In this document: one piece after another, positions 1 to 11,286 of the stretch | How positions within the stretch are numbered: position 1 is the first letter of the stretch | How the letters are laid out: each line of letters opens with the position of its first letter | NCBI GenBank assembly: GCA_009697105.1 | Contig: SIAQ01000007.1 | Location: forward strand, 1-64,000 | DNA: 64,000 nucleotides | From: Gemmataceae bacterium | Lineage (GTDB): Bacteria; Planctomycetota; Planctomycetia; Gemmatales; Gemmataceae | Reading direction: 5' to 3' | The notes under the pieces: generated by a model | Told to the model about the DNA's origin: nothing | The model's database searches: none | What the model saw: only the letters and a program-made list of their open reading frames with translations | Made by a program: the position numbers and the translations under genes

Positions 1-289
1 CCTTCGGATTGAGCACGGGAAGATACTGGGCAAGAATCATCGTTTTGTCGGCAGGTGCCGCCAGATCGGACTTCATGATTTTTTCGATATGAAACTCGGT
101 CGTGCCTTTGCCGTCGGGACCCAGCTTGGGATTGGCGAGCACGCCGAAGGCGACCATCGAGGCTTCCTGATATTCGTAAACGATGGAGCGGCCGGCAGCG
201 AACGATCCGCACAAACTACACGCTGGCGCGGGGCAGGGCAGGGCGAGGCACAGGACGAGGCAGCCGATCGACAAGCAACGCGATAGCAT
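1..289 (-). CDS. Secreted CxxC protein, partial (3' end outside the window)
   Basis: The reverse strand reads from an ATG at 289 and stays open to the left edge, so only the first 96 or so residues are present. They begin with a hydrophobic signal peptide (MLSRCLSIGCLVLCLALPC) followed by a CSLC motif. The mature start aligns by eye with the next gene upstream (416-1609). Both have a CxxC just after the signal peptide, then a block ending in F.IE.I / FVIEEVIK, then a conserved ILAQYLPVLNPK / ILTLPKPFIDPK stretch. I infer two tandem paralogues on the same strand, separated by one long palindrome. The function is unknown. The paired cysteines could bind metal or form a disulfide outside the cytoplasm. 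Confidence 0.7.
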   Translation of the reverse strand, partial: MLSRCLSIGCLVLCLALPCPAPACSLCGSFAAGRSIVYEYQEASMVAFGVLANPKLGPDGKGTTEFHIEKIMKSDLAAPADKTMILAQYLPVLNPK

Positions 290-320
290 GAGAACTCCGT
301 TTCGTGCGATAAAAATCAGG

Positions 321-404
321 CAAGCCCATGGGTGAGGTACTCCGAACCCTTGGGATCGATCAAGCGTGATCCCAGGGGTTCGGAGTACCTCACCCATGGG
401 CTTG
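321..404. repeat. Inverted repeat, family A (37-nt arms)
   Basis: Arms at 321-357 and 368-404 are reverse complements with one mismatch and a 10-nt loop. The core contains GGTGAGGTACTCCGAACC. A diverged second copy lies at 43802-43886. It sits between two tandem genes and could also act as an RNA hairpin or terminator. Confidence 0.9.
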
Positions 405-415
405 AAAGGGATTCC

Positions 416-1609
416 TTATTTCTTCCCCGTCGTGCTCGTAACGGCAGCGGGCGTTTCCAGATCGAGAAGTTCGCGCGTATCAGTAACCCATTCGGCGTCG
501 CGCTTGCGTTGCTCGGCCACGAACTCGACGGCTCGTTTGTTGGGACATTGAATCGCGTAACGCAGGATCGACTTGCGAATGATCGGCGTGTTGTAGGTCT
601 TCTGACCATACATGCCGATGATCTGGTCGCAGAATTCCCAGCGTTTCCAGCGGCGCAGATCCTCGATAGCGAAGTCGGCCATGTCGGCGACTTCCAGTAC
701 GCCCGCCAGCCCTTTGACGATCTCCGCCCGGGCAGACGTGTCATCTTTCGCGATTAAGTCGGGTCGGCTTTCCCAGAAAAACCGCATCGACTGCAAGCCG
801 GCAAAGCGGACGAGGAACGGCTGCTCCGCATCGCGCACGAGTGACTTCACCATGTTCCAGCCCTTGGCCGTGTCGAGCATCGTATACGCTGCCATCAAAC
901 CATGCAAGCCGGACCCCTGGCGTTTCTCGGGGTCTTGAATCATAGAGAGCAGTAGCTCCGCGTCCTTGGCGCCGCCACAATGGCCCAGGAGCGAGGCATA
1001 AAGCCCATAGCGAAACGACGGCGTCTTCGGATCCTTCAGCCAGCCGGCGATCTTGTCGGCTGGCAGCTTTTTGGCTATCTCTTTGTAGTCGCCATAGTCG
1101 GCCTTGGCGAATTCACGATAGGCGTCGAGCGCGACTTCGATTTCCGGGCTGTTCAGGAAATCGAACGCGTACCGCAACCGCTCGGGTTGCTTCTTGTCCT
1201 TCAGCTTGACCGCGCCGGTGAGATATTGCCTCATCTCGCTGTCTTTGGTCAGCTGTACGCCCTTGTATGGGTCGAGTTTGCCCTCGTAGATTTCAAAAAA
1301 CACGATGAATTTGACCTTGGGGTCGATGAACGGCTTTGGCAGCGTTAGTATCTTTTTCCCTTTAACCATGTCATGGGGCTTGATAACTTCTTCGATGACG
1401 AAATCCGATTCGCCGGGATCGATGCCGTTCTTGGCAAAACGCGGATTCTCGAAATGCCCGTAGAGGATAATATGCGCTTGCTCGAACTCTCCGGTGAGCG
1501 TCGGGCCTTTCTCGGTTTCGCAAAACGGGCAAAATGCTTGCGTCCTGTTCACAGCAACAAAGAGGACGACCGCCACGATGAACCAGGTGTAACGATTTAG
1601 CGTATTCAT
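416..1609 (-). CDS. Secreted protein with CxxC motif and HEAT-like C-terminal helices
   Basis: The 397-residue product begins with a signal peptide (residues 1-25). It is followed by CPFC (27-30), which resembles the CSLC of the partial paralogue at 1-289. Residues 30-140 look like a beta-rich domain. Residues 150-380 are helical and recall HEAT-like repeats, with recurrent patterns such as ALDAYREFA, YGLYASLLGHCG and FAGLQSMRFF. No catalytic motif is recognised. It is probably extracytoplasmic. Upstream, 1610-1770 holds only a degenerate palindrome. The HEAT assignment comes from pattern reading and is tentative. Confidence 0.8.
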   Translation of the reverse strand: MNTLNRYTWFIVAVVLFVAVNRTQAFCPFCETEKGPTLTGEFEQAHIILYGHFENPRFAKNGIDPGESDFVIEEVIKPHDMVKGKKILTLPKPFIDPKVKFIVFFEIYEGKLDPYKGVQLTKDSEMRQYLTGAVKLKDKKQPERLRYAFDFLNSPEIEVALDAYREFAKADYGDYKEIAKKLPADKIAGWLKDPKTPSFRYGLYASLLGHCGGAKDAELLLSMIQDPEKRQGSGLHGLMAAYTMLDTAKGWNMVKSLVRDAEQPFLVRFAGLQSMRFFWESRPDLIAKDDTSARAEIVKGLAGVLEVADMADFAIEDLRRWKRWEFCDQIIGMYGQKTYNTPIIRKSILRYAIQCPNKRAVEFVAEQRKRDAEWVTDTRELLDLETPAAVTSTTGKK

Positions 1610-1769: not shown

Positions 1770-3911
1770 CTATTTGAGATAGATATCCGGATCGGGCGGG
1801 CAGGTTTCGATGTCCTTGGTGTCCCAAACAGTCAGAATTGTAAGGAACGAGCCATTGCCCCGGTCGCGAAATTCCACTTTACCCGTGACCTTCACCCATT
1901 CCGTTTCCCGAAAGCCAACTACAGGCTCGCGCGAAATCATCGGCACATTGAGTTGGATGACATCGCTCGCGCAGCAGTTGATCTTCAACCGAACCAGCAT
2001 GAACTGATGCGGATTCGCCGAGAACGGCATGAACTGGCCGCGCACCGTTACGAGCTTGCTACCCCACTGCTCGCGGAGGTCCGATCTTAGCGACAGCGAC
2101 TCCAGGTGCTTAAAGTCAATCGGCTCACCCTTGCCCGATGGTCGCAATGCGATACCCAGGAATCCGACTTGCACCATCGGATCATCGCCGAGAAAGATTG
2201 CCGAGAGGAAAATATCACTCTTCGCGGAAACGAGGTACTTGGCATCGGTCTCCAGCGTTGTTTTCTGCGATTCGATCGGATGATCTCTACCGAAAAGGTA
2301 ATGCGCTGCCATTGTGTAGGCAAATACCTGCACAACGAGAGCCATCACTATCGTCGCAATCAAACGCCCACGAAACACACGAGTGAACATCAGCAGCAGC
2401 TTGAGGTCAAGCATCGGCCCGAGCACCATGAAGGCGAGTTTCGAGCCGTCGGGCCAAAAGATCGGAAAATTAGCGGCGACAAATGCATCCGCCTCGCTGC
2501 ACAGACAGAACAAAATCGCGACGCCCATCAACACCAGGATAGCGATGGCCGGCGTCTGCTGAATCGATTCTTGAATATCGGTTGCCTTGATGACGAATTT
2601 TCCGCCGGCCGCAAGCATGGCGCCGAGCACGAGAAACGCCATGATATCAACGAAATCGTTGAGCGACGTCTTGGAAATGGCGTTCCAGCGTTCGCTCCAT
2701 AAGCGATGAGCGACGACGTCGTCGCCGGCAGCGGTGCCGCGCAGCCCTTGCAAGACGCTTGGATGCAGCAAGGCCCGATCCTGCCCGTGTGCCTGCCAGT
2801 GCACGATGACAGCCGTAATGCACGCCACGATATACGCCAATCCGACACGCAAGCCAACAACCCACAGCGTGCCGCCGAGCACGTCATTGCGGCCCTCCTC
2901 GTTGTAGCCGCTAAACGCTACATATGTGCTTGTGATGACAATGACATTAATCACCGGCCCGGCTAGCATGTAGGCAACACAGACGCTTAACGGCAGCCCC
3001 TTTCGCAAGAGCCGCTTCATGACCACGATGATGCCACACTCGCACATCGGAAAGATTAAACCAAGCAAACCACCGATCATGATCGCAAGAACGTGATTAC
3101 GCGGCACGATCTTGGCGATCGCCTGCTGCGGCACGAATTCTTCCAGCAATCCCGCCAGCAGCACGCCCAGCACGATGAAAGGCAGTGCTTCGTAAATAAT
3201 GCTCGTGAAATCGAGAATGAGTTGCTTGTAGTCGATCGCCGTCTGGGCCATCTCGAACCCGCGCAACTTCGGCGGTTCGTCCGGCAAGCCAAGCAAGAAC
3301 AGGATGATCGGCACGAGAATCACGGCGTAGCGCCACGGCGCCCAGCCATGATCGTGGTCGGCAGCCTCGTGATCGTGATGGGCGTGCCCGTGCGTGTGTG
3401 TATGAGCGTGCTCATGGCCACACGTTTCGTCCGGAGCGTGGTCGTGTCCGCAGGCCGGCGCCGGCGTCATCGGCAGGGCAGTTGTTTGTATGCTAGTGTG
3501 CGGTGAGGCATCGTGGATCGCTTCCGTGTGCTTGTGCTCATGTTCGTGATGATCGTGCTGGTGATCGTGTGTCAGTCGAAATGACGGGTCGCGTGACTGA
3601 TTCCAGAGAATAACGCCACGGCCAAAGGCGACAATCACGAGCGCGATTCCGCTCAGCAGGACATAGATGTGAAATTGGTCGGCAAGCATCGTCTTGAGCA
3701 TCTTGGTTTGCCAAAACCAAAGGCAGAGGCAGATGACGCCAAACGCGCCGGACAGACCGACCATGCAGAGCTGATCAATGAAGTAGCTGTCTTCGTCGTC
3801 ATGGTGATGATGCCCGTGGCCATGTTCGTGAGCAGGTGAATGACCGGCGCCGGCATGATCGGAGTGGGCGTGGCCATGATTGTGCCCATGAGGATGGGAA
3901 TGGTCAGACAT
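1770..3911 (-). CDS. His-rich UPF0718-type permease fused to a TIGR03943-like domain
   Basis: The 713-residue product begins with a strongly His-rich stretch (residues 4-37). Two membrane segments follow (about 46-67 and 81-102), then a second His-rich block with CGHDHAPDETCGHEH (about 115-188). Next is a polytopic permease of the UPF0718/DUF318 type (about 195-540) with the motif MCECG at 289-293 and SEADAF near 472. The C-terminal 150 residues include RLKINCCASD (641-650), the pattern I associate with TIGR03943 proteins, which in some bacteria are a separate gene beside the permease. Family knowledge suggests transport of a metal or metal-linked ligand. The His-rich segments and the neighbouring Zn/Mn-type ABC permease gene support a zinc-related role, which is inference. 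Confidence 0.8.
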   Translation of the reverse strand: MSDHSHPHGHNHGHAHSDHAGAGHSPAHEHGHGHHHHDDEDSYFIDQLCMVGLSGAFGVICLCLWFWQTKMLKTMLADQFHIYVLLSGIALVIVAFGRGVILWNQSRDPSFRLTHDHQHDHHEHEHKHTEAIHDASPHTSIQTTALPMTPAPACGHDHAPDETCGHEHAHTHTHGHAHHDHEAADHDHGWAPWRYAVILVPIILFLLGLPDEPPKLRGFEMAQTAIDYKQLILDFTSIIYEALPFIVLGVLLAGLLEEFVPQQAIAKIVPRNHVLAIMIGGLLGLIFPMCECGIIVVMKRLLRKGLPLSVCVAYMLAGPVINVIVITSTYVAFSGYNEEGRNDVLGGTLWVVGLRVGLAYIVACITAVIVHWQAHGQDRALLHPSVLQGLRGTAAGDDVVAHRLWSERWNAISKTSLNDFVDIMAFLVLGAMLAAGGKFVIKATDIQESIQQTPAIAILVLMGVAILFCLCSEADAFVAANFPIFWPDGSKLAFMVLGPMLDLKLLLMFTRVFRGRLIATIVMALVVQVFAYTMAAHYLFGRDHPIESQKTTLETDAKYLVSAKSDIFLSAIFLGDDPMVQVGFLGIALRPSGKGEPIDFKHLESLSLRSDLREQWGSKLVTVRGQFMPFSANPHQFMLVRLKINCCASDVIQLNVPMISREPVVGFRETEWVKVTGKVEFRDRGNGSFLTILTVWDTKDIETCPPDPDIYLK

Positions 3912-4020
3912 CGTTATTGCTACTTTAGAAAATTCAGGGAGGGCCGACGGTACTTTCCATACGCAAGCAAGGGCGATTCGGTTCGTGCTTAGAGGTTAGT
4001 GGTTCGCCGCTCGCCACTAT

Positions 4021-4959
4021 TCACGCCTGCCGCACCCAGCGGCCGATTACCATCGTTGACGCAAAGGTTAACACGCTGAGGACGACGATCGTGCCGCTGA
4101 TACCGACGGTGAATGTTTGGTGAAACTGGCAGCTGATTTCCCAGCTCAGGACATAGCCGACGCCGCCGATCGCCACAGCGAGAACAATGGACCACCAGAA
4201 CATTTGGCGTAGGTTGTTGGCGACGTTCGCCGCCGCTGCCGCTGGGACGATCAGCAAGCCGTTTATCAGCAACGTGCCGACGATCTGCTGGCTGAGGTTG
4301 ACCATGAGCGCCAGCAAGATAATGAACAAATACCGCGAAAGCCGAACGGGAACACGCCGCGACAGCGCCAGAGACGGATTTGCGCTAGCGAGCACGATCC
4401 AGTTGTACATAAAAATGAGGAAGACCGCCGTGGCGACGGCCAAGCCGATGAGAAGCACGACTTCCCAGGAGCGTGCCGAGGTCGGATTGCCGAAGATGAA
4501 ATCCTCGATGCTGAAAAACTGCCGACGTTGGACGACGCGCGTAAAGATTGCGCCAAGTCCGATCGACCCCGCATAAAAGACGCCGATGACGGTGTCGCTT
4601 GCCAAGCCCGTCTTCTCGCGCACATAGGCGATCATGATACCGATGCTGACGCCGAACGCGACCATGATGAGCGTGATTCGCTGCCGAATCAGATCGTCTG
4701 GGGTATCGGCTAGCAGGCAAATGAGCAAACCAAGGCCCACGCCGGCAAACGCGCAATGCGCCAGGGCATCGCTGAAAAACGCCATACGGTTGCCGACGAC
4801 AAGCGAGCCTAGCGCGCCACAGACAAAGCACACAACCAACGTCGCGATAATGCCGCGGACGTTGTCATGATGCGTCATGAACGTGCCCGGCAACCACACC
4901 GGCAGCCGACGGATCACGTCTATCAGTAGGTCCAGGAACTCGGCGGGGTAATCCAGCAT
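4021..4959 (-). CDS. Zn/Mn-type ABC transporter, membrane permease
   Basis: This is a polytopic membrane protein of the ABC-3 family (ZnuB/MntB type), about 312 residues from the ATG at 4959. It carries the family's characteristic features: DALAHCAFAGVGLG, the helix with ASDTVIGVFYAGSIGLG, and VGTLLINGLLIVPAAAA. A longer frame begins at 5013, but its first 18 residues are encoded by an AT-rich palindrome, so MLDYPAEF at 4959 is preferred. No ATPase or substrate-binding gene lies next to it in this window. It follows the aminotransferase and precedes the His-rich permease on the same strand. Its substrate is probably zinc or manganese. Confidence 0.88.
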   Translation of the reverse strand: MLDYPAEFLDLLIDVIRRLPVWLPGTFMTHHDNVRGIIATLVVCFVCGALGSLVVGNRMAFFSDALAHCAFAGVGLGLLICLLADTPDDLIRQRITLIMVAFGVSIGIMIAYVREKTGLASDTVIGVFYAGSIGLGAIFTRVVQRRQFFSIEDFIFGNPTSARSWEVVLLIGLAVATAVFLIFMYNWIVLASANPSLALSRRVPVRLSRYLFIILLALMVNLSQQIVGTLLINGLLIVPAAAAANVANNLRQMFWWSIVLAVAIGGVGYVLSWEISCQFHQTFTVGISGTIVVLSVLTFASTMVIGRWVRQA

Positions 4960-4966
4960 AAGATCA

Positions 4967-5051
4967 TTGCAGATTGCAAATTGCAAATTGCAAATTGAAA
5001 GGCCAATATGCACTTGGCGTTTTCAATCTGAAATCTGCAATTTGAAATCTT
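4967..5051. repeat. AT-rich imperfect inverted repeat
   Basis: Repeated GCAAATTGCAAATTG on the left faces CAATCTGAAATCTGCAATTTG on the right. It fills the gap between the aminotransferase stop and the ABC permease start. A single-arm relative lies inside uvrA at 17038-17068. Confidence 0.75.
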
Positions 5052-6423
5052 AAATTCTCCCGAGGGTTCGATACATCAGATCCATCGCCTGCTGCGATTC
5101 GGTTTCGGTGATGACGAGCGGCGGCGAGATTCGGACGACTTTCTTCGCTAGCGGGCCGAGCAGATGGATGCCGAGATCGCCTTCGCCTTTGTAGCAAGCG
5201 AGAACGACAGCATTGGCCCAATCGGCAGCGGTGCGGCCACCGTGATCGCGCATCTCGACGCCCCAGACCATGCCGCCTTTTTCGCCTCGCACATGAGCGA
5301 CGAACGGCAACTCTTTAAGCCTGACCAGCCCGCGTTCGATGACAGCGGACGATCGCCGAGTCGCTTCGATGACGCCGCCGCGTGCGAATTCATCGAGTGT
5401 CGCCAGCACGGCGGCGCAACAGACGGGATTCGCACTCCAGGTGTCGGAGCCTTCGCCATATTCGAGTGCGCCGAACAGTGCGGGCGGACCCACCGCCGCT
5501 GCGACCGGAATGCCGTTACCCAGCCCCTTGCCGAGCACGACGATGTCGGGTTCGAGACCATACGTCTCGTACGCAAACAGGTCGCCGGTGCGACCAAAGT
5601 TTGATTGCACTTCGTCAAGAATGAAGACAATATCGTTGTCATGGCAAAAGGTTTGAATCGCCTGAAGATAGAGTTTGTTGGGATGGTACGACCCGCCGCC
5701 GCCGATGTAGGGTTCTGTGATTAGCGCAGTTAGCTTGCGGCCAAATTGATGCTTCAGTGTTTCCAATTCCTGCACATACGGCCAAGGATCAAACGGCTCG
5801 TCGCGCAACGACACGTCGAGACATTCGCACATGGGAAAGCTGATGAAGCGAACTCGCGGATCGCGATCCCGATCGGTTTCGGAGCCGGTGACCGCGCCGG
5901 CGATGCCCTTCTTGCCGTGAAAACCGAATCGTGTTGCGATGAGCATGTCGCGTGTTCGATCGCGTGCCAGCGCCGCCCAGAGTGCCTTCTGGATCGCTTC
6001 CGAACCGGATGCTGCCCACATCACTTGCTGCAATCGTTTGCCACCCGGTCGGCTTTGCAGCAGTTCGGCCAAGCGCTGGCTGGCTTGCACTTCGACGGGG
6101 GTGACCGCGTTGTATGCCGTGAGGGGAAGGGCAGGGAAGTATGCGCTGCCCGACACTTTCCACGGATCGCCCGACCAGCCCATGTAGCGTGTGAATTTTT
6201 CCATCCAGGCCGACGGGTTGTGGCCGAGATTCGCGACTAGCACGCCGGACGAAAAGTCGAACAGTTTCCGACCTTCCGGCGTCCAGTGAAAGACGCCGGC
6301 GCTCTTCGCCAACACCGCTTGCGTCGGCGTATAGGTTCGTAAACTTTTCGGCTCGAAACGCAGGGCCAGCTCGCGATCCACGTTTGAGGTCGGCTCGTTG
6401 AGGTGGCGAATGATGTCGGTCAT
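5050..6423 (-). CDS. Class III PLP-dependent aminotransferase
   Basis: The 457-residue length is normal for fold-type I class III aminotransferases (4-aminobutyrate/ornithine type). The PLP site is complete: ASGSEA (138-143) for phosphate binding, the DEVQSNFGRTG block with D270 contacting the pyridine nitrogen, and the Schiff-base lysine K299 in VLGKGLGNG. ITEPYIGGGG (235-244) is also typical of the family. It is cytosolic and transfers an amino group between an amine or amino acid and a 2-oxo acid. The exact substrate cannot be read from sequence. The neighbours do not form an obvious pathway. Confidence 0.9.
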   Translation of the reverse strand: MTDIIRHLNEPTSNVDRELALRFEPKSLRTYTPTQAVLAKSAGVFHWTPEGRKLFDFSSGVLVANLGHNPSAWMEKFTRYMGWSGDPWKVSGSAYFPALPLTAYNAVTPVEVQASQRLAELLQSRPGGKRLQQVMWAASGSEAIQKALWAALARDRTRDMLIATRFGFHGKKGIAGAVTGSETDRDRDPRVRFISFPMCECLDVSLRDEPFDPWPYVQELETLKHQFGRKLTALITEPYIGGGGSYHPNKLYLQAIQTFCHDNDIVFILDEVQSNFGRTGDLFAYETYGLEPDIVVLGKGLGNGIPVAAAVGPPALFGALEYGEGSDTWSANPVCCAAVLATLDEFARGGVIEATRRSSAVIERGLVRLKELPFVAHVRGEKGGMVWGVEMRDHGGRTAADWANAVVLACYKGEGDLGIHLLGPLAKKVVRISPPLVITETESQQAMDLMYRTLGRI

Positions 6424-6556
6424 CAGTGTGCTCCGTTAGGCGTGCTACGTCTGTTATACGGTTCGCCCCGTAATTCGGCACATCGTTTAGCCTGGCGTCT
6501 TTGGCGAACACGAACTGCATTACCTGCCGATTGCAATGTCGAAATCGATTTCATCG

Positions 6557-7074
6557 TCATTCCGCTACGCGCAGAAATTCCGGCAGGACGCGCTCGGTCA
6601 GCCAAACGCCGTTCTCCGAGCGGAAATACAGATGCCCGCGGGAGTGCATTGCGGCAGCGTCGATGATGAGAATGACTGGCTTTCCGCGGCGCTGCCCAAC
6701 TTTTTTCGCCGTCTCCATATCCGGTGAAAGATGAACATGGTGGCGTTTCATCTTCAGTAAGCCGAGTGCGAAGATTTCCGGTATGACCTTAGCAACGGTC
6801 CCGTGATAAAGGACCGCGGGCGGAGCGATCGGTTCAAGCTGCAAATCGACCGCCGTCGAATGGCCCTGGTTTGCGCGAATGCGTGTGCCCGTGTCGTTCA
6901 TTGCAAGCCTTTGCTTTTCGCAGTTGCGCACGACCTCGTCGAGTTCCTCCGGTGCGATGGAGACGCCGTGCGAACCGAACGAGGCAAGCAGCGATTCAGG
7001 CCGATGGCCTCCGGCTGGTGACGAAGGTGTTTGGAAAAAAGCTTGCTAATCGCGATCCGGTGTGTGTGGTCCAT
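6557..7074 (-). pseudogene. kptA: RNA 2'-phosphotransferase KptA, disrupted by a deletion and frameshift
   Basis: From the ATG at 7074 the first frame reads ISKLFSKHLRHQPEAIGL, the N-terminal KptA signature. It then goes into nonsense and ends at 6898. The remainder lies in another frame: SIAPEELDEVVRNCEKQR, TRIRANQGHS, YHGT and NGVWLTERVLPEF, ending at 6557. Between them the usual D..GW..V segment (about ten residues) is missing. The second frame picks up at ESLLASF, which matches the family's helix after that segment. I therefore infer a small non-triplet deletion near 6993-7000. KptA normally transfers a 2'-phosphate from RNA to NAD+. All the later motifs persist, so the lesion is recent or is a sequence error. 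Confidence 0.8.
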
Positions 7075-7119
7075 GAATGTAGCTCCCATAGGTGATGTTT
7101 TGTATGGTAGTTTTTCGTA

Positions 7120-8409
7120 TTACACCCGCCCCGCATACAACACCGTCGCCTCGGCGTTGCCCGGCTTAAGCAGCACGAGACCGCCGCGCGGGCCGTTGAC
7201 CTCGACGACGCCTGCCGGTCGGCCGCTCGCCTGGCGAGTGAGCAATGCCTCCATCGCTTGCACAATGGCGACGGCGTTGCGGTCGGCACTGACATCGTTG
7301 TAAGTCAAGGCACGCATCGCCGTCAAGCGATCCGCACGCAAGGCAGGGGGGCCGGCGTGTTCGACATAGGCGACCTCTTCGAAAAACTTCTGGATGATCT
7401 CGATACCGTAGCCGCGTTGCGAGCGTTCGCCCCAGGGTTCCAAAAAACTCCCATTGTAATGATGGTTGGGAGTGATCTTGAGTTCGCTTGGCGTGCGATT
7501 TTCGATCGTCACCTCGACTCCGCGTTTGCGTTGATGGGCGTTCCAGATGCCGTTATCGAAGCGGAATTGCACTTCTTGATCGACGTAACCGGGAAAGTTG
7601 TCGGGCGTGACCCAGCTGGTGTGGATGTCGAACGCCGCCTCGCGTCCGTCAGGGTAGGCGTAGGTGATTTGAAGCTGCACGGAGTCCCATGTCGTCCCGC
7701 CGGGCACGCCGACGAGGCCGCGCTGGCCGTTGCAGGTAATGCGGGCGAGACGCCAGGCGGAATTGGCAAAGGTAAAATCGATCAGCTTGATGTAGTGCAC
7801 CGCGACGTACGTGCCAGGATTGCGGCCCTGGATCCATTCCGCGAATTGGCTGCCGCTGATCGACTTCGGCTCAAGCAGGGTGCAGTATCCGTTATTGACG
7901 TGCTTGAGGTTGCCATCCACATAGTGCGTGTGAAGTTTCTTGTGGTCGGGATCGCCGAGCTTGTGATAGACGATTTTTGCAAGCACGTTATTCTTGCGAG
8001 CGAGCATATCGAGCGAGTCCAACTCTTGCAACGTGAGGACGGATGGCTTCTCGATCAAGACGTGTTTGCCTGCTTCGAGCGCGGCCCTGGCCGACTCGAA
8101 ATGGCGATCGTCGGGCGTCGCCACACAGACAGCATCGACGCCATGTACCAGCAGCTGCTGTGTCGAGTTCGCGCCGGCGAAACTAACAAACGGCACCACT
8201 CGGCCTACGGCGTCCTTGCGATATCTCTCCGCGCGACTGCCGGTTCGGCTGGCGACGGCGCTGAGTTCCACTTCGACGACGCCGAAGTCACGCCGATACA
8301 GACCTTGCTGGTGCACGTGCTCGAAAAAGGGCCGATAGGTATCGTCGAAGATCATGCCCATGCCGACCATGCCGGCGCGGATTTTCTTTTGGGAGGGAGT
8401 TGTATTCAT
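7120..8409 (-). CDS. Gfo/Idh/MocA-family oxidoreductase
   Basis: The 429-residue protein has an N-terminal Rossmann fold (GMVGMGMIFDD at 13-23, a glycine motif with an altered third position) and the family's EKP motif at 120-122, where K121 is the usual catalytic lysine. The C-terminal half has the large beta-sheet substrate-binding domain, including a H...GSFLEPWGERSQRGYG region. Such enzymes are NAD(P)-dependent dehydrogenases acting on sugars, inositols or related polyols. The substrate is not deducible. No signal peptide or Tat motif is visible, so it is cytosolic. A degenerate family C palindrome remnant lies just upstream, near 8440-8475. Confidence 0.88.
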   Translation of the reverse strand: MNTTPSQKKIRAGMVGMGMIFDDTYRPFFEHVHQQGLYRRDFGVVEVELSAVASRTGSRAERYRKDAVGRVVPFVSFAGANSTQQLLVHGVDAVCVATPDDRHFESARAALEAGKHVLIEKPSVLTLQELDSLDMLARKNNVLAKIVYHKLGDPDHKKLHTHYVDGNLKHVNNGYCTLLEPKSISGSQFAEWIQGRNPGTYVAVHYIKLIDFTFANSAWRLARITCNGQRGLVGVPGGTTWDSVQLQITYAYPDGREAAFDIHTSWVTPDNFPGYVDQEVQFRFDNGIWNAHQRKRGVEVTIENRTPSELKITPNHHYNGSFLEPWGERSQRGYGIEIIQKFFEEVAYVEHAGPPALRADRLTAMRALTYNDVSADRNAVAIVQAMEALLTRQASGRPAGVVEVNGPRGGLVLLKPGNAEATVLYAGRV

Positions 8410-8487
8410 GCGGACTATGATAGGAGCAAACGGAGTTTACGTTTAGCGCTCGCTTGGTGCCACGCGCGCATTAAACACAAATGCGAA

Positions 8488-9822
8488 TCACCGCCCCGCC
8501 ATAAGATATGCCCGCAGTTCGCGGCTGATTTGATCGCAGAATTGCTTTTGGGCCCGCACGCGTTCCATGGAATCTCCCGGGCCGATGGGGCGAACGACGG
8601 TGATATCGACGAGGCTGCGCGAGCCGACCTGTTTCTTTTTCATGAACAGATCGAGCGCAACCCATTCGACCTGCTGTTCCGCCTTGCCGCCGAAGAAGCC
8701 GAACATGCTTTTCTTCGCGACAGTTTCAGTGACCTTGGGTAACTTCACGCGAATGACGCCTGCCTCGCTTTCCACGACCTGCCCGCCGACGGCATCGACG
8801 AAGCCGCGCAGTTTCATCGCTGCCATCTGTTCGACCATGGTGGCTTCAAACTGGTCGATTACGGTGCGGGGATCGATCTTGTAGCGATCCTGCAACGACG
8901 ACACGGCATTCTGCGCCGAGGTCGCGAACGCCTGCTCGTCAATGAGCCTGCAAGCGATCGCCTTTTCGTAGGCCTCGATCAGGGCCCGCGCCGTTTCAGG
9001 ACGTTCATTCGGGGACTTACTCAAACACGACATCACAACCGCTTCCACCGCTGGCGATACGTCGCGAATCTGCCAATGGCTAAACTGCGGCGGTGGTTGC
9101 GTGATCTGCGCTTGCATGATTTCGTACGGGTCAGTCAACGTTTCAAAAGGCACATGCCCCGTGAGCAAGCCATAGAGCAGCACGCCGACGCTGTAAAGGT
9201 CGCCTCGCTGATCGACCTGCCGGCCTTGCACCTGCTCGGGGCAGATGTAATCGGGCGTGCCGCCGTCGATTCCGCTACTGTCATTGTTCAGCTGGCCGGA
9301 CGGGATATAGAAGCCTATCCGCCTCGCCAGGCCGAAATCCATGACCTTGACTGTCTCGCGCGGCGTCGCTTCGTTGACGATCATGATGTTGGCCGGCGTG
9401 AGATCACGATGCAGCAGTCCGTTGTCGTGGGCCGTTTGCAAAAACAGGCAGAGCGGGGCCATCAGCTTCCCAACACGCAGCGCTGGCAGTCGGCCATGCT
9501 TCTGCATGAGCTGATCAAGCGTAATGCCGCGGACGAATTCCATCACGATAAACGGAGGCATGGCGCCATCCGCCGAGGCGGCGATGAACCGCACTGCGTT
9601 CGGATGGCGAAACCGGCGCATCAAATCGGCCTCTTGCTCAAAGCGCTGCAGCGTTTTGGTTTCGCGAAGGAGATGCTCGTGAACGACCTTGACGACCACG
9701 ATCTCGCGCGTCAAACGATGATGGGCAAGATAGACCTTACCCATCCCGCCTTCGCCAAGTTGCTTGTCGAGGTCGTAATCGTTCAGCCCATGGATTTTCG
9801 GCAGGGAGGCTAGCGCGGTCAT
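8488..9822 (-). CDS. Soluble Hanks-type Ser/Thr protein kinase
   Basis: A kinase domain occupies residues about 16-295. It has the glycine loop GEGGMGKV (23-30), the ATP-anchoring lysine K45, the catalytic loop HRDLTPANIM (from 138), DFG at 162-164 and GTPDYICPEQ for the activation segment. The usual lysine after HRDL is a threonine here. The last 150 residues form an unrecognised domain with no membrane segment and no PASTA or sensor domain, so the kinase is probably cytosolic. Planctomycetes encode many such kinases. The targets are unknown. The start MTALASLPKI is chosen because the kinase fold follows directly. Confidence 0.9.
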   Translation of the reverse strand: MTALASLPKIHGLNDYDLDKQLGEGGMGKVYLAHHRLTREIVVVKVVHEHLLRETKTLQRFEQEADLMRRFRHPNAVRFIAASADGAMPPFIVMEFVRGITLDQLMQKHGRLPALRVGKLMAPLCLFLQTAHDNGLLHRDLTPANIMIVNEATPRETVKVMDFGLARRIGFYIPSGQLNNDSSGIDGGTPDYICPEQVQGRQVDQRGDLYSVGVLLYGLLTGHVPFETLTDPYEIMQAQITQPPPQFSHWQIRDVSPAVEAVVMSCLSKSPNERPETARALIEAYEKAIACRLIDEQAFATSAQNAVSSLQDRYKIDPRTVIDQFEATMVEQMAAMKLRGFVDAVGGQVVESEAGVIRVKLPKVTETVAKKSMFGFFGGKAEQQVEWVALDLFMKKKQVGSRSLVDITVVRPIGPGDSMERVRAQKQFCDQISRELRAYLMAGR

Positions 9823-9912
9823 TGGCCGACCCTTTGCGAGAATTCGGAATATCCGCGCAAGAATAGGTCGGAAATCGAGGGAAAGCCAATAAACTCTGTA
9901 CGAATTATCGAT

Positions 9913-10695
9913 TCACTCACTTTTCCGAACTTTTAATGTGAAGCCACCCGTTTCGCTGCCGTCAAGCGACGTGGCGACAATGTGATGGACGCCGTCCCGC
10001 ACCGCGCGAAAGGTGATGCGCGAGTTGAGATCGCCGCCAGAGTCGTCGTCCTGGGCGAGTAGTTTGCTCTTCGAGTCGAAAAGGTAGAGATAGCTATCGA
10101 CATCCGAACTTTCGAGGTCGATTGTGTAAGTGACGCCGGCTTTCATTTCGATGCTGAATGTCTTCCCGAGCTTACCAAAGGCGGTGGTGTTGCCGGCCTG
10201 AATCTGGTCATTGATGGTCAGACCGTCCTTGGCAATGGCTCGCGGCTTGGCTTCGCCGTTGAGCGTGAACTCTCGCACGCGGAGGTTGAACTTGCCGACC
10301 TGACCATCGAACGTGGTCACGACAATCTGGTGATCCTCGGTTTTTGCAGGCGAGTAGATGATCCGCGCGTTAAGGTCGCCGCCCTCGTCGTCGTCCTCGG
10401 CCAACTGGTCACCTGCCTTGTCGAGAAGGCGAAGGTAGGAGTCGAAATCACCGCTGGCGAGATCGATGATGTACGATTTGTCTTTTTGCAATCTAACCGT
10501 GTAGCGTTTGGAAGGAGCGTCGAGTTTCGCATCCTTTGCGTCCTTGACGTTCAAGTCGCCGTTGATTTCGATGGGCTTGAAGGCCAACTCTTTTTTCGGC
10601 TCCACTTTCTTTTCCGCAGGCACCGGTTTGCCAACGACAACATCAAGCATGACAACCGAAGTGAACGCCATTACGAGCAACGTGCGACCGAACAT
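9913..10695 (-). CDS. Secreted protein with two PPC-like domains
   Basis: From the ATG at 10695 the protein is 260 residues with a signal peptide (MFGRTLLVMAFTSVVML). It contains two repeats of about 75 residues. Each has a pattern YxIDLxSxDxDSYLxLxD followed by AxDDDxGGDLNxRI and a final IVxTxxDG. This is the layout of bacterial pre-peptidase C-terminal (PPC) domains, beta-sandwich modules usually appended to secreted proteases. Here the two PPC-like modules stand alone, without a catalytic domain. A longer frame starting at 10770 adds 25 residues without signal-peptide character and is rejected. The aspartates could bind calcium, which is inference. Confidence 0.82.
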   Translation of the reverse strand: MFGRTLLVMAFTSVVMLDVVVGKPVPAEKKVEPKKELAFKPIEINGDLNVKDAKDAKLDAPSKRYTVRLQKDKSYIIDLASGDFDSYLRLLDKAGDQLAEDDDEGGDLNARIIYSPAKTEDHQIVVTTFDGQVGKFNLRVREFTLNGEAKPRAIAKDGLTINDQIQAGNTTAFGKLGKTFSIEMKAGVTYTIDLESSDVDSYLYLFDSKSKLLAQDDDSGGDLNSRITFRAVRDGVHHIVATSLDGSETGGFTLKVRKSE

Positions 10696-10773
10696 GTTTG
10701 TATCTCCGAAGGGACAGCGTATTCTCACCTCACCATTTGTCGCCGATAGACGATCGAAATGCAAGAGCAACAG

Positions 10774-11286
10774 TTATTTTTTCCCGACTGGATCGGCGAT
10801 GTTGCCCAGCCTAAGCACGACCAGGATGCTGCCACGCAGGGTCGCCTCGCGAATCGCATCCTCGCCCGCGGCGAGGGCGACGTTTTCGCCGGCGCCGTCA
10901 TTCGGAAGATAAATCACCTTGGTGAGATAGTTGCCGCGCGTCACGAGTTTGACCTCGTCATCGGTGATCGCGATCGGCACGGCATTGTGCGCGAGGAAAT
11001 CACGCACGCGCGGATTCGCGGGCGCGACGATCTCAAGCGTCGGATACAACTCCAGGCCCGCATGCCGGGGCAGATGCGTCACTTTGAGCCGATAGACCGC
11101 TCCCGAGATAAAGTTGAACCGGCCCGGCGTTTCGAGCGGCGTCGTGGAATAAGAAGCCTTACCGTCGCGCACGATGAACCAGAATACCTTCATGCCGACC
11201 GGTTCCTTGAACAGCACCTGCGTGCGAAGCTGAGCGGTCGCGGTGGACGCGAAAGCAAGCAGAATGCAGAGCGTGATCGTACGCAT
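10774..11286 (-). CDS. Secreted protein of unknown function
   Basis: This 170-residue protein has a clear signal peptide ending near ALATAQ-type residues (MRTITLCILLAFASTATAQ). The mature part has mixed beta content with QVLFKEPVGMKVFWF at its start and no recognised catalytic motif. It lies upstream of the PPC-like protein on the same strand with a gap of about 80 nt, so the two may be co-transcribed. I do not recognise the family. Confidence 0.75.
   Translation of the reverse strand: MRTITLCILLAFASTATAQLRTQVLFKEPVGMKVFWFIVRDGKASYSTTPLETPGRFNFISGAVYRLKVTHLPRHAGLELYPTLEIVAPANPRVRDFLAHNAVPIAITDDEVKLVTRGNYLTKVIYLPNDGAGENVALAAGEDAIREATLRGSILVVLRLGNIADPVGKK

Follow-up and report, generated by a model that had tools for sequence, protein, structure and literature searches.

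An ArsP_1 permease nested within a DUF1980 protein in Gemmataceae: a rare, recurrent one-chain form of the YcgRQ/ScfAB pair with a possible role in zinc uptake

Background

The proteins YcgR/YcgQ of Bacillus subtilis, ScfA/ScfB of Streptococcus pyogenes and SMU.746/SMU.747 of Streptococcus mutans are encoded by two adjacent genes, whereas in a Gemmataceae bacterium (assembly GCA_009697105.1) the corresponding parts form a single chain of 713 amino acids (aa). The gene lies on the minus strand near the start of contig SIAQ01000007.1, within positions 1 to 64,000 (hereafter referred to as the window), and is accompanied by a gene for an ABC-3 permease, a component typical of zinc importers. ScfAB and YcgRQ are presumably members of the ArsP_1 (UPF0718) and TIGR03943/DUF1980 families. 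What the fused protein is, how it arose and what it may do beside an ABC-3 permease are the questions raised by this locus.

In the portions of PMC5584981 drawn upon here, scfAB are described as linked genes of undetermined function that have counterparts, ycgRQ among them, in streptococci, enterococci and bacilli, and as being needed in a mouse soft-tissue infection model. The ArsP_1/DUF1980 pair was found in several phyla in the present analysis, and its wide occurrence together with the infection phenotype of the streptococcal form makes the pair a matter of general interest. The fusion is a real, rare and recurrent nested form of this known protein pair, and the architecture and recurrence described below are well supported.

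Architecture of the fusion protein

The fusion is encoded by an open reading frame (ORF) without interruption, the parts of which are as follows.

1770..3911, minus strand: fusion gene, in the order DUF1980 N-terminal part, ArsP_1 permease, DUF1980 C-terminal part (ORF, Pfam and NCBIfam matches, alignment to a split orthologue)
3792..3911, minus strand: His-rich N-terminal tail, aa 1-40, 16 His (residue count)
3591..3800, minus strand: DUF1980 membrane helices 1 and 2, aa 38-66 and 78-107 (model, hydropathy)
3342..3578, minus strand: His-rich loop, aa 112-190, 23 His, perhaps cytoplasmic (residue count, model)
3294..3338, minus strand: DUF1980 membrane helix 3, aa 192-206, in WAPWRY..., after which the permease is inserted (model, hydropathy, alignment)
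2292..3230, minus strand: inserted ArsP_1 permease, aa 228-540, with a predicted fold like that of the ion transporter superfamily (Pfam, model)
1791..2141, minus strand: DUF1980 C-terminal domain, aa 591-707, a predicted OB fold (domain matches, model)

The permease part is recognised by Pfam well above the cut-off (ArsP_1, PF03773, aa 235-537, 160.2 bits, cut-off 32.3). The matches of the C-terminal part are weaker: TIGR03943 (aa 615-702) scores 53.6 bits, under the NCBIfam cut-off of 88.8, and DUF1980_C (aa 616-708) scores 23.1 bits in the protein search, under the Pfam cut-off of 25.9, and 26.7 bits, over it, in the genome search. DUF1980_N (PF09323) gave no match in the 713-aa protein. 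The two large His-rich segments reported by the first-pass annotation are borne out by the residue counts listed above.

The way in which the parts are joined was revealed by a member of the same genus (G274), in which the permease and the DUF1980 protein are encoded by two genes and which thus represents a split orthologue. Its permease aligns to aa 226-539 of the fusion (66% identity), while its DUF1980 protein aligns in two blocks on either side, residues 19-229 to aa 1-216 of the fusion (61% identity) and residues 237-392 to aa 560-713 (43% identity). The alignment thus places the permease inside the DUF1980 protein, between the third membrane helix and the C-terminal OB-fold domain, and the same nested order is found in the fusions of two other genomes (G161 and G307). 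The fused UPF0718-TIGR03943 protein of the first-pass annotation stands as a single ORF, and a simple joining of two neighbours end to end is ruled out by the alignment to the split orthologue. A sequence search of the PDB returned nothing at E <= 1, and searches of open-licence papers gave no description of an ArsP_1 permease within a DUF1980 protein.

Distribution and origins of the fusion

A search for the fusion in other genomes, as proposed by the first-pass annotation, was performed in 95 Gemmataceae genomes, 93 of which had matches, and the window together with the neighbourhoods in 84 relatives, 85 loci in all, were read over 3 to 20 kb each; eight matching genomes with partial or weak matches were omitted (G244, G271, G291, G301, G306, G308, G309 and G310). 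The two proteins are fused in 8/85 loci, the window's included, and encoded by separate genes in 73/85, with DUF1980 not seen in the stretch read in the remaining four (G300, G082, G288 and G297). The genome of the window is a draft in 187 contigs, which might suggest a sequencing or assembly artefact; however, eight assemblies carry the fusion, those other than the window's having versions 41-97% identical to its protein, so the fusion is neither a chance event nor one misassembly, and the chance of an artefact is close to nil.

Two fused clades were recovered in a tree of the concatenated proteins, comprising the 77 of 85 rows with more than 500 letters. The first consists of the window's genome (G000), G101, G285, G173, G137 and G223, with the split G274 as sister, and the second of G161 and G307, with the split G262 as sister. 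This tree requires two changes, and forcing one fused clade costs 299 log-likelihood units (p-AU 6e-7). Trees of the single proteins on chosen genomes (permease, 37 rows; DUF1980, 34 rows; ABC-3, 33 rows) each reject one fused clade, so that a single fused clade was rejected in all four tests. All four trees were quick ones computed without bootstrap, G211 stands on a long branch, and in the permease and DUF1980 trees G274 has no fixed place next to the first fused clade. Since the three single-protein trees each reject a single clade, the nested fusion probably arose twice, independently in each fused clade; a very old fusion followed by many losses would need far more changes. Such a repeated origin would be good evidence that the permease and the DUF1980 protein form one complex of fixed geometry.

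Two wider surveys yielded few additional instances. Among 65 loci from genomes of named species, only one (L063, 97% identity) was fused in a scan that was not exhaustive, the fused G161 and G307 being absent from its list. In a draw of 392 genomes of the phylum, which evidently included few family members, E <= 1e-100 was reached only by the window's own genome.

One locus (L046, 9615-11522, in G247) carries two tandem DUF1980 genes after the permease. DUF1980 duplications of this kind may represent an intermediate on the way to nesting.

Gene cluster around the fusion

The fusion gene belongs to a cluster of genes on the minus strand, the other members of which are listed here.

4021..4959, minus strand: ABC-3 (ZnuB/AztB-like) permease, upstream of the fusion (Pfam, 132.7 bits, cut-off 20.1)
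5050..6423, minus strand: class-III aminotransferase, upstream of the ABC-3 gene (domain match; 67/85 loci)
416..1609, minus strand: probably secreted CxxC protein (family in 27/85 loci; structure model)
2..397, minus strand: paralogue of the 416-1609 gene, truncated at the contig end (ORF, similarity)

The first-pass annotation placed the ABC-3 permease downstream on the same strand; the strand is as stated, and the gene lies upstream in the sense of transcription because both it and the fusion gene are on the minus strand. Its ORF could start with GTG at 5013, ATG at 4959 being judged more likely. The nearest NCBIfam model is the AztB zinc permease (NF040871), with 107.6 bits, under the cut-off of 280. 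Since the window starts at the contig end (C1:1), the downstream side of the fusion can be read no further.

Across the 85 loci, all chosen for the permease, DUF1980 was found in 81, ABC-3 in 78, the aminotransferase in 67, the CxxC family in 27 and ZnuA in none. The order is strictly kept: in 78/78 loci having it, the ABC-3 gene precedes the permease gene in transcription and shares its strand (domain gap median 201, maximum 919 bases), the aminotransferase gene precedes ABC-3 in the same manner in 67/67 loci with both, and DUF1980 is downstream of the permease in the 69/69 split loci with a C-domain match. The aminotransferases are about 58-97% identical to the window's in BLAST, and many members of the cluster are only about 45-55% identical to the window's proteins.

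The absence of nearby genes for the ATPase and the binding protein, observed in the first-pass annotation, holds for the window and extends to its relatives, the only ATPase match being a 679-aa ORF on the opposite strand in one locus (G184). A complete ZnuABC operon is not present at this cluster, and a hidden ATPase or ZnuA nearby is rejected by these counts for the stretches read.

A probable importer split over two loci

The missing components are probably encoded elsewhere in the genome. The window's genome contains a complete locus with the order ZnuA-ATPase-permease-permease (contig C157) and another (contig C133) with ZnuA (10083-11084) and an ATPase (9319-10086) and no permease gene. 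In the 25 family genomes searched for ABC-3 and ZnuA, the C133-type ZnuA is present in 22, and all 22 loci were read. It is adjoined by the C133-type ATPase in 20/22; of the two others, L219 is cut near a contig end and L225 has none in the stretch read. In none of the 22 genomes does an ABC-3 gene share a contig with the C133-type ZnuA, apart from G022 and G030, each of which consists of a single contig with the two genes more than 1 Mb apart. Six genomes (G161, G196, G262, G253, G265 and G145) have a single ABC-3 and a single ZnuA each, on different contigs. Of the three genomes of the 25 outside this count, G285 (74% complete) gave no ZnuA match, G223 has one of the C157 type only, and a third, partial ZnuA match is present in G193.

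On these data the lone ABC-3 permease probably belongs with the ZnuA/ATPase pair to a single importer encoded at two loci, with the exception of G223. For the integrated metal uptake or trafficking unit suggested by the first-pass annotation, the link with metal-uptake genes is supported by the presence of ABC-3 beside the pair in most family loci, but the unit can stand at most in a broader form, the ATPase and ZnuA probably being supplied by a second locus. Such a split importer would show that seemingly missing ATPase and binding-protein genes can occupy a second conserved locus.

Conserved motifs and predicted structure

Three short motifs are conserved throughout the family.

3033..3050, minus strand: PxCECG, aa 288-293 (P, C, E, C and G in 85/85 family permeases)
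2487..2501, minus strand: CSExD, aa 471-475 (C, S, E and D in 85/85 family permeases)
1962..1976, minus strand: CCxxD, aa 646-650 (79/79 family domains, 31/31 outside)

In addition, D and K of a DxK motif in the permease are kept in 84 family members, with one gap. Outside the planctomycetes, P, C, E and C of PxCEC are present in 32/33 permeases (one gap) and C, S and D of CSExD in 33/33, but the E is replaced by T or S in 32/33. Members from Firmicutes and Verrucomicrobia thus share PxCEC, CSxxD and CCxxD with the fusion.

In an AlphaFold2 model of the fusion (mean pLDDT 66, pTM 0.57), the permease core (228-540) is preceded by three membrane helices at the N-terminus and followed at the C-terminus by a barrel with five longer strands, the His-rich parts being disordered. 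With VIA-align, the core lies nearest to ArsB (10tp, Z 12.7), NaCT (Z 12.3) and YdaH (Z 12.0), and also NaDC3, at 8-10% identity to the first three; a Z of 12.7 for a helical core is suggestive only, being near the level that unrelated helical proteins can reach. As compared with these carriers of the ArsB, DASS and AbgT type, the fusion adds the surrounding membrane helices and the OB domain to a similar predicted permease fold. On a reading of the helix list in the light of the known build of the superfamily, PxCECG and CSExD may occupy equivalent places of an inverted repeat. The C-terminal barrel falls among OB folds (Z about 10.9). This domain would lie outside the membrane, because a Staphylococcus aureus DUF1980 protein is tabulated as a lipoprotein in the section of PMC5020093 referred to here.

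Related loci and known systems

The link with metal genes in other genomes, on which the first-pass annotation had let its proposal depend, was found beyond the Gemmataceae as well, zinc-uptake genes being present within about 6 kb of the pair in 4/32 non-planctomycete loci. A Spartobacteria metagenome-assembled genome (Verrucomicrobia, L104) has ZnuA, ATPase, ABC-3, ArsP and DUF1980 genes in a row, all confirmed by Pfam, with the ArsP start 4 bases before the ABC-3 end. In Bacillus sp. OV166 (L119), COG0523, ZnuA and ZinT genes surround two ArsP_1/DUF1980 pairs, and five Zur-box matches with at most 2 mismatches occur against 0.08 expected, one of them perfect and situated between znuA and arsP. 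Near the pair of Paenibacillus cremeus (L120) lie genes for COG0523, ATPase, ABC-3 and ZnuA, and in L111 a zinc-type ABC locus is found on the opposite strand (BLAST). The two pairs of L119 are consecutive (5854-9956).

A published parallel is from Bacillus anthracis, where, in the parts of PMC6336718 cited here, Zur binds in electrophoretic mobility shift assays upstream of an operon with an ArsP_1 permease (BAS1632), beside yciC, and the authors inferred positive regulation of this operon by Zur. In the same organism znuA stands alone, with znuB and znuC in the zur operon. An ArsP_1 permease with zinc genes is common to both genomes, as is, probably, a split ZnuABC, whereas the BAS1632 operon, in those parts not described as fused, has known Zur boxes. 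As compared with ZnuABC and AztABC importers, the window's ABC-3 permease is of the same Pfam family but stands apart from the ZnuA and ATPase pair. The zinc operon PA4063-PA4066 of Pseudomonas aeruginosa includes PA4063, with two His-rich loops, and PA4066, a periplasmic OB-fold-like protein, and, as described in the portion of PMC8561739 used here, has no ArsP_1 permease, unlike the window's cluster; PA4066 (4hsp) is a weak structural match to the fusion model (Foldseek E 0.027). A term search of the accessible text of PMC2770081 gave no mention of UPF0718. In relation to YcgRQ and ScfAB, the distinguishing features of the fusion are the nested permease, the two large His-rich segments and the lone ABC-3 gene upstream.

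Proposed function and alternatives

We consider it somewhat likely that the 713-aa protein is a one-chain carrier of the YcgRQ/ScfAB type which assists a split ZnuABC importer and has a role in zinc uptake or hand-over. A soft metal ion, most probably zinc, would be caught outside the membrane by the invariant CCxxD of the C-terminal OB-fold domain and handed to the permease core, an elevator-type carrier in which PxCECG and CSExD would take it across the membrane; in the cytoplasm, the His-rich tail and the His-rich loop would receive or buffer the metal. The fusion would in this way assist an importer with ZnuB from the same cluster and ZnuA and ATPase from the second locus. The protein folds are predicted, and we infer the sidedness, the identity of the metal, the direction of transport and the contact with the split ABC transporter. 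A bolder version, of which we are doubtful, is an undescribed zinc-acquisition machine in which a nested elevator-type carrier with its OB-fold acceptor works physically with a two-locus ZnuABC. If true, the twice-arisen nesting implies that the acceptor grips the carrier at both ends with its helices and its OB domain, and YcgRQ and ScfAB would serve to hand over metal when zinc is limiting. The zinc hypothesis is made concrete and testable by the conserved lone ZnuB-like permease next to the fusion, the rest of the importer probably being encoded elsewhere.

Several observations weigh against a role in zinc uptake. Zur-like sites upstream, which the first-pass annotation had suggested seeking, were not found in the window: nothing upstream of its genes comes close to any of four consensus forms of the Zur box, and one of these forms has no match within 3 mismatches in the window, though the planctomycete box may differ. 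No palindrome common to the regions upstream of 22 ZnuA genes was found either, so that the zinc link in the Gemmataceae bacterium rests on gene content, not on regulation. ABC-3 was not seen in the stretch read in 7/85 loci, some of these absences being contig ends, and G265 and G145 carry their single ABC-3 gene on a different contig from the permease/DUF1980 pair. The fused G223 has only the C157-type ZnuA, with no C133-type among the matches, and L225 is the C133-type ZnuA locus lacking a visible ATPase. The 4/32 non-planctomycete loci with zinc-uptake genes nearby are a minority. In a Pfam tally of 149/156 selected neighbours (the 7 longest dropped) at 33 loci, one of them planctomycete (L098), the most frequent families, GHL10 (7) and a C4 zinc-ribbon coiled-coil protein (6), are not those of metal transport and exceed cobW (2), ZnuA (1) and ZinT (1), the choice of ORFs having made the tally miss the ABC genes of L104 and L111. 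The pTM of the model, the modest Z of its core and a Foldseek search with nothing at E <= 0.001 count on the same side, as does the reported control of B. subtilis ycgRQ by extracytoplasmic function (ECF) sigma factors in the cited part of PMC5584981.

Some of these observations would suit other functions. The fusion might be an exporter that rids the cytoplasm of surplus soft metals or metalloids (Cu, Zn, As(III) or a thiol conjugate), which the His-rich parts would gather and the OB domain would release on the outer side. The Cys motifs would fit such an exporter, the nearest solved fold is that of the arsenite transporter ArsB, and the NCBIfam matches of the permease part are to Cu/Zn efflux and other efflux families. 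However, these scores are far under the cut-offs, the best being 68.9 bits for the SO_0444 Cu/Zn efflux transporter (NF033936, cut-off 300), a match that also speaks against uptake. The neighbours are moreover of the uptake type, ABC-3 in the family and ZnuA, ZinT and COG0523 with Zur boxes in one Bacillus, and a zinc exporter induced by zinc lack makes little sense; efflux is therefore unlikely. The cargo might instead be something other than bare metal, such as a product of the aminotransferase (a chelator or an amino-acid-derived compound), the zinc link then being indirect. The invariable place of the aminotransferase upstream of ABC-3 speaks for this, and an amino-acid permease was hypothesised by the authors of the S. 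mutans work in the part of PMC5584981 cited. It is nonetheless quite unlikely: the aminotransferase is lacking in the stretch read in 18/85 loci, some of them contig ends and two of them the fused loci of the second clade, none was found by BLAST in 32 loci outside the planctomycetes, and the invariant Cys/Asp motifs point to metal.

A third possibility is that the zinc context reflects inherited gene order only, the pair serving in envelope stress with ABC-3 as a neighbour without functional contact. The ECF control of YcgRQ, the host-fitness and acid-stress phenotypes of ScfAB and SMU.746-747 (cited part of PMC5584981) and the lack of zinc genes at most loci outside the planctomycetes favour this, but the gene order is kept in 78/78 loci despite the low identity of many members, and the same set of partners recurs in the verrucomicrobial locus; we regard it as very improbable.

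Other observations

The dyads found upstream of 61 aminotransferase genes (5/61, against 2-3 in shuffles) form a slight excess that may be due to relatedness. An Rfam scan of the first 10 kb gave no RNA family over the cut-offs, and the predicted promoters number 3 (3.3 in shuffles) and the terminator-like sites 10 (6.9). The window's genome contains one FUR-family gene.

The CxxC paralogues (2-1609, minus strand) each have a hydrophobic N-terminus followed by a CxxC (CPFC, CSLC), and no Pfam or NCBIfam match was obtained for them at E <= 0.1. A model of the larger protein (pLDDT 87) predicts a TIMP/NTR (netrin)-like N-terminal domain and HEAT-like helices, on weak matches (best E 0.0046). Directly upstream of the cluster lies a gene for a KptA/Tpt1-type RNA 2'-phosphotransferase (6557-6931, minus strand; PF01885, 107 bits).

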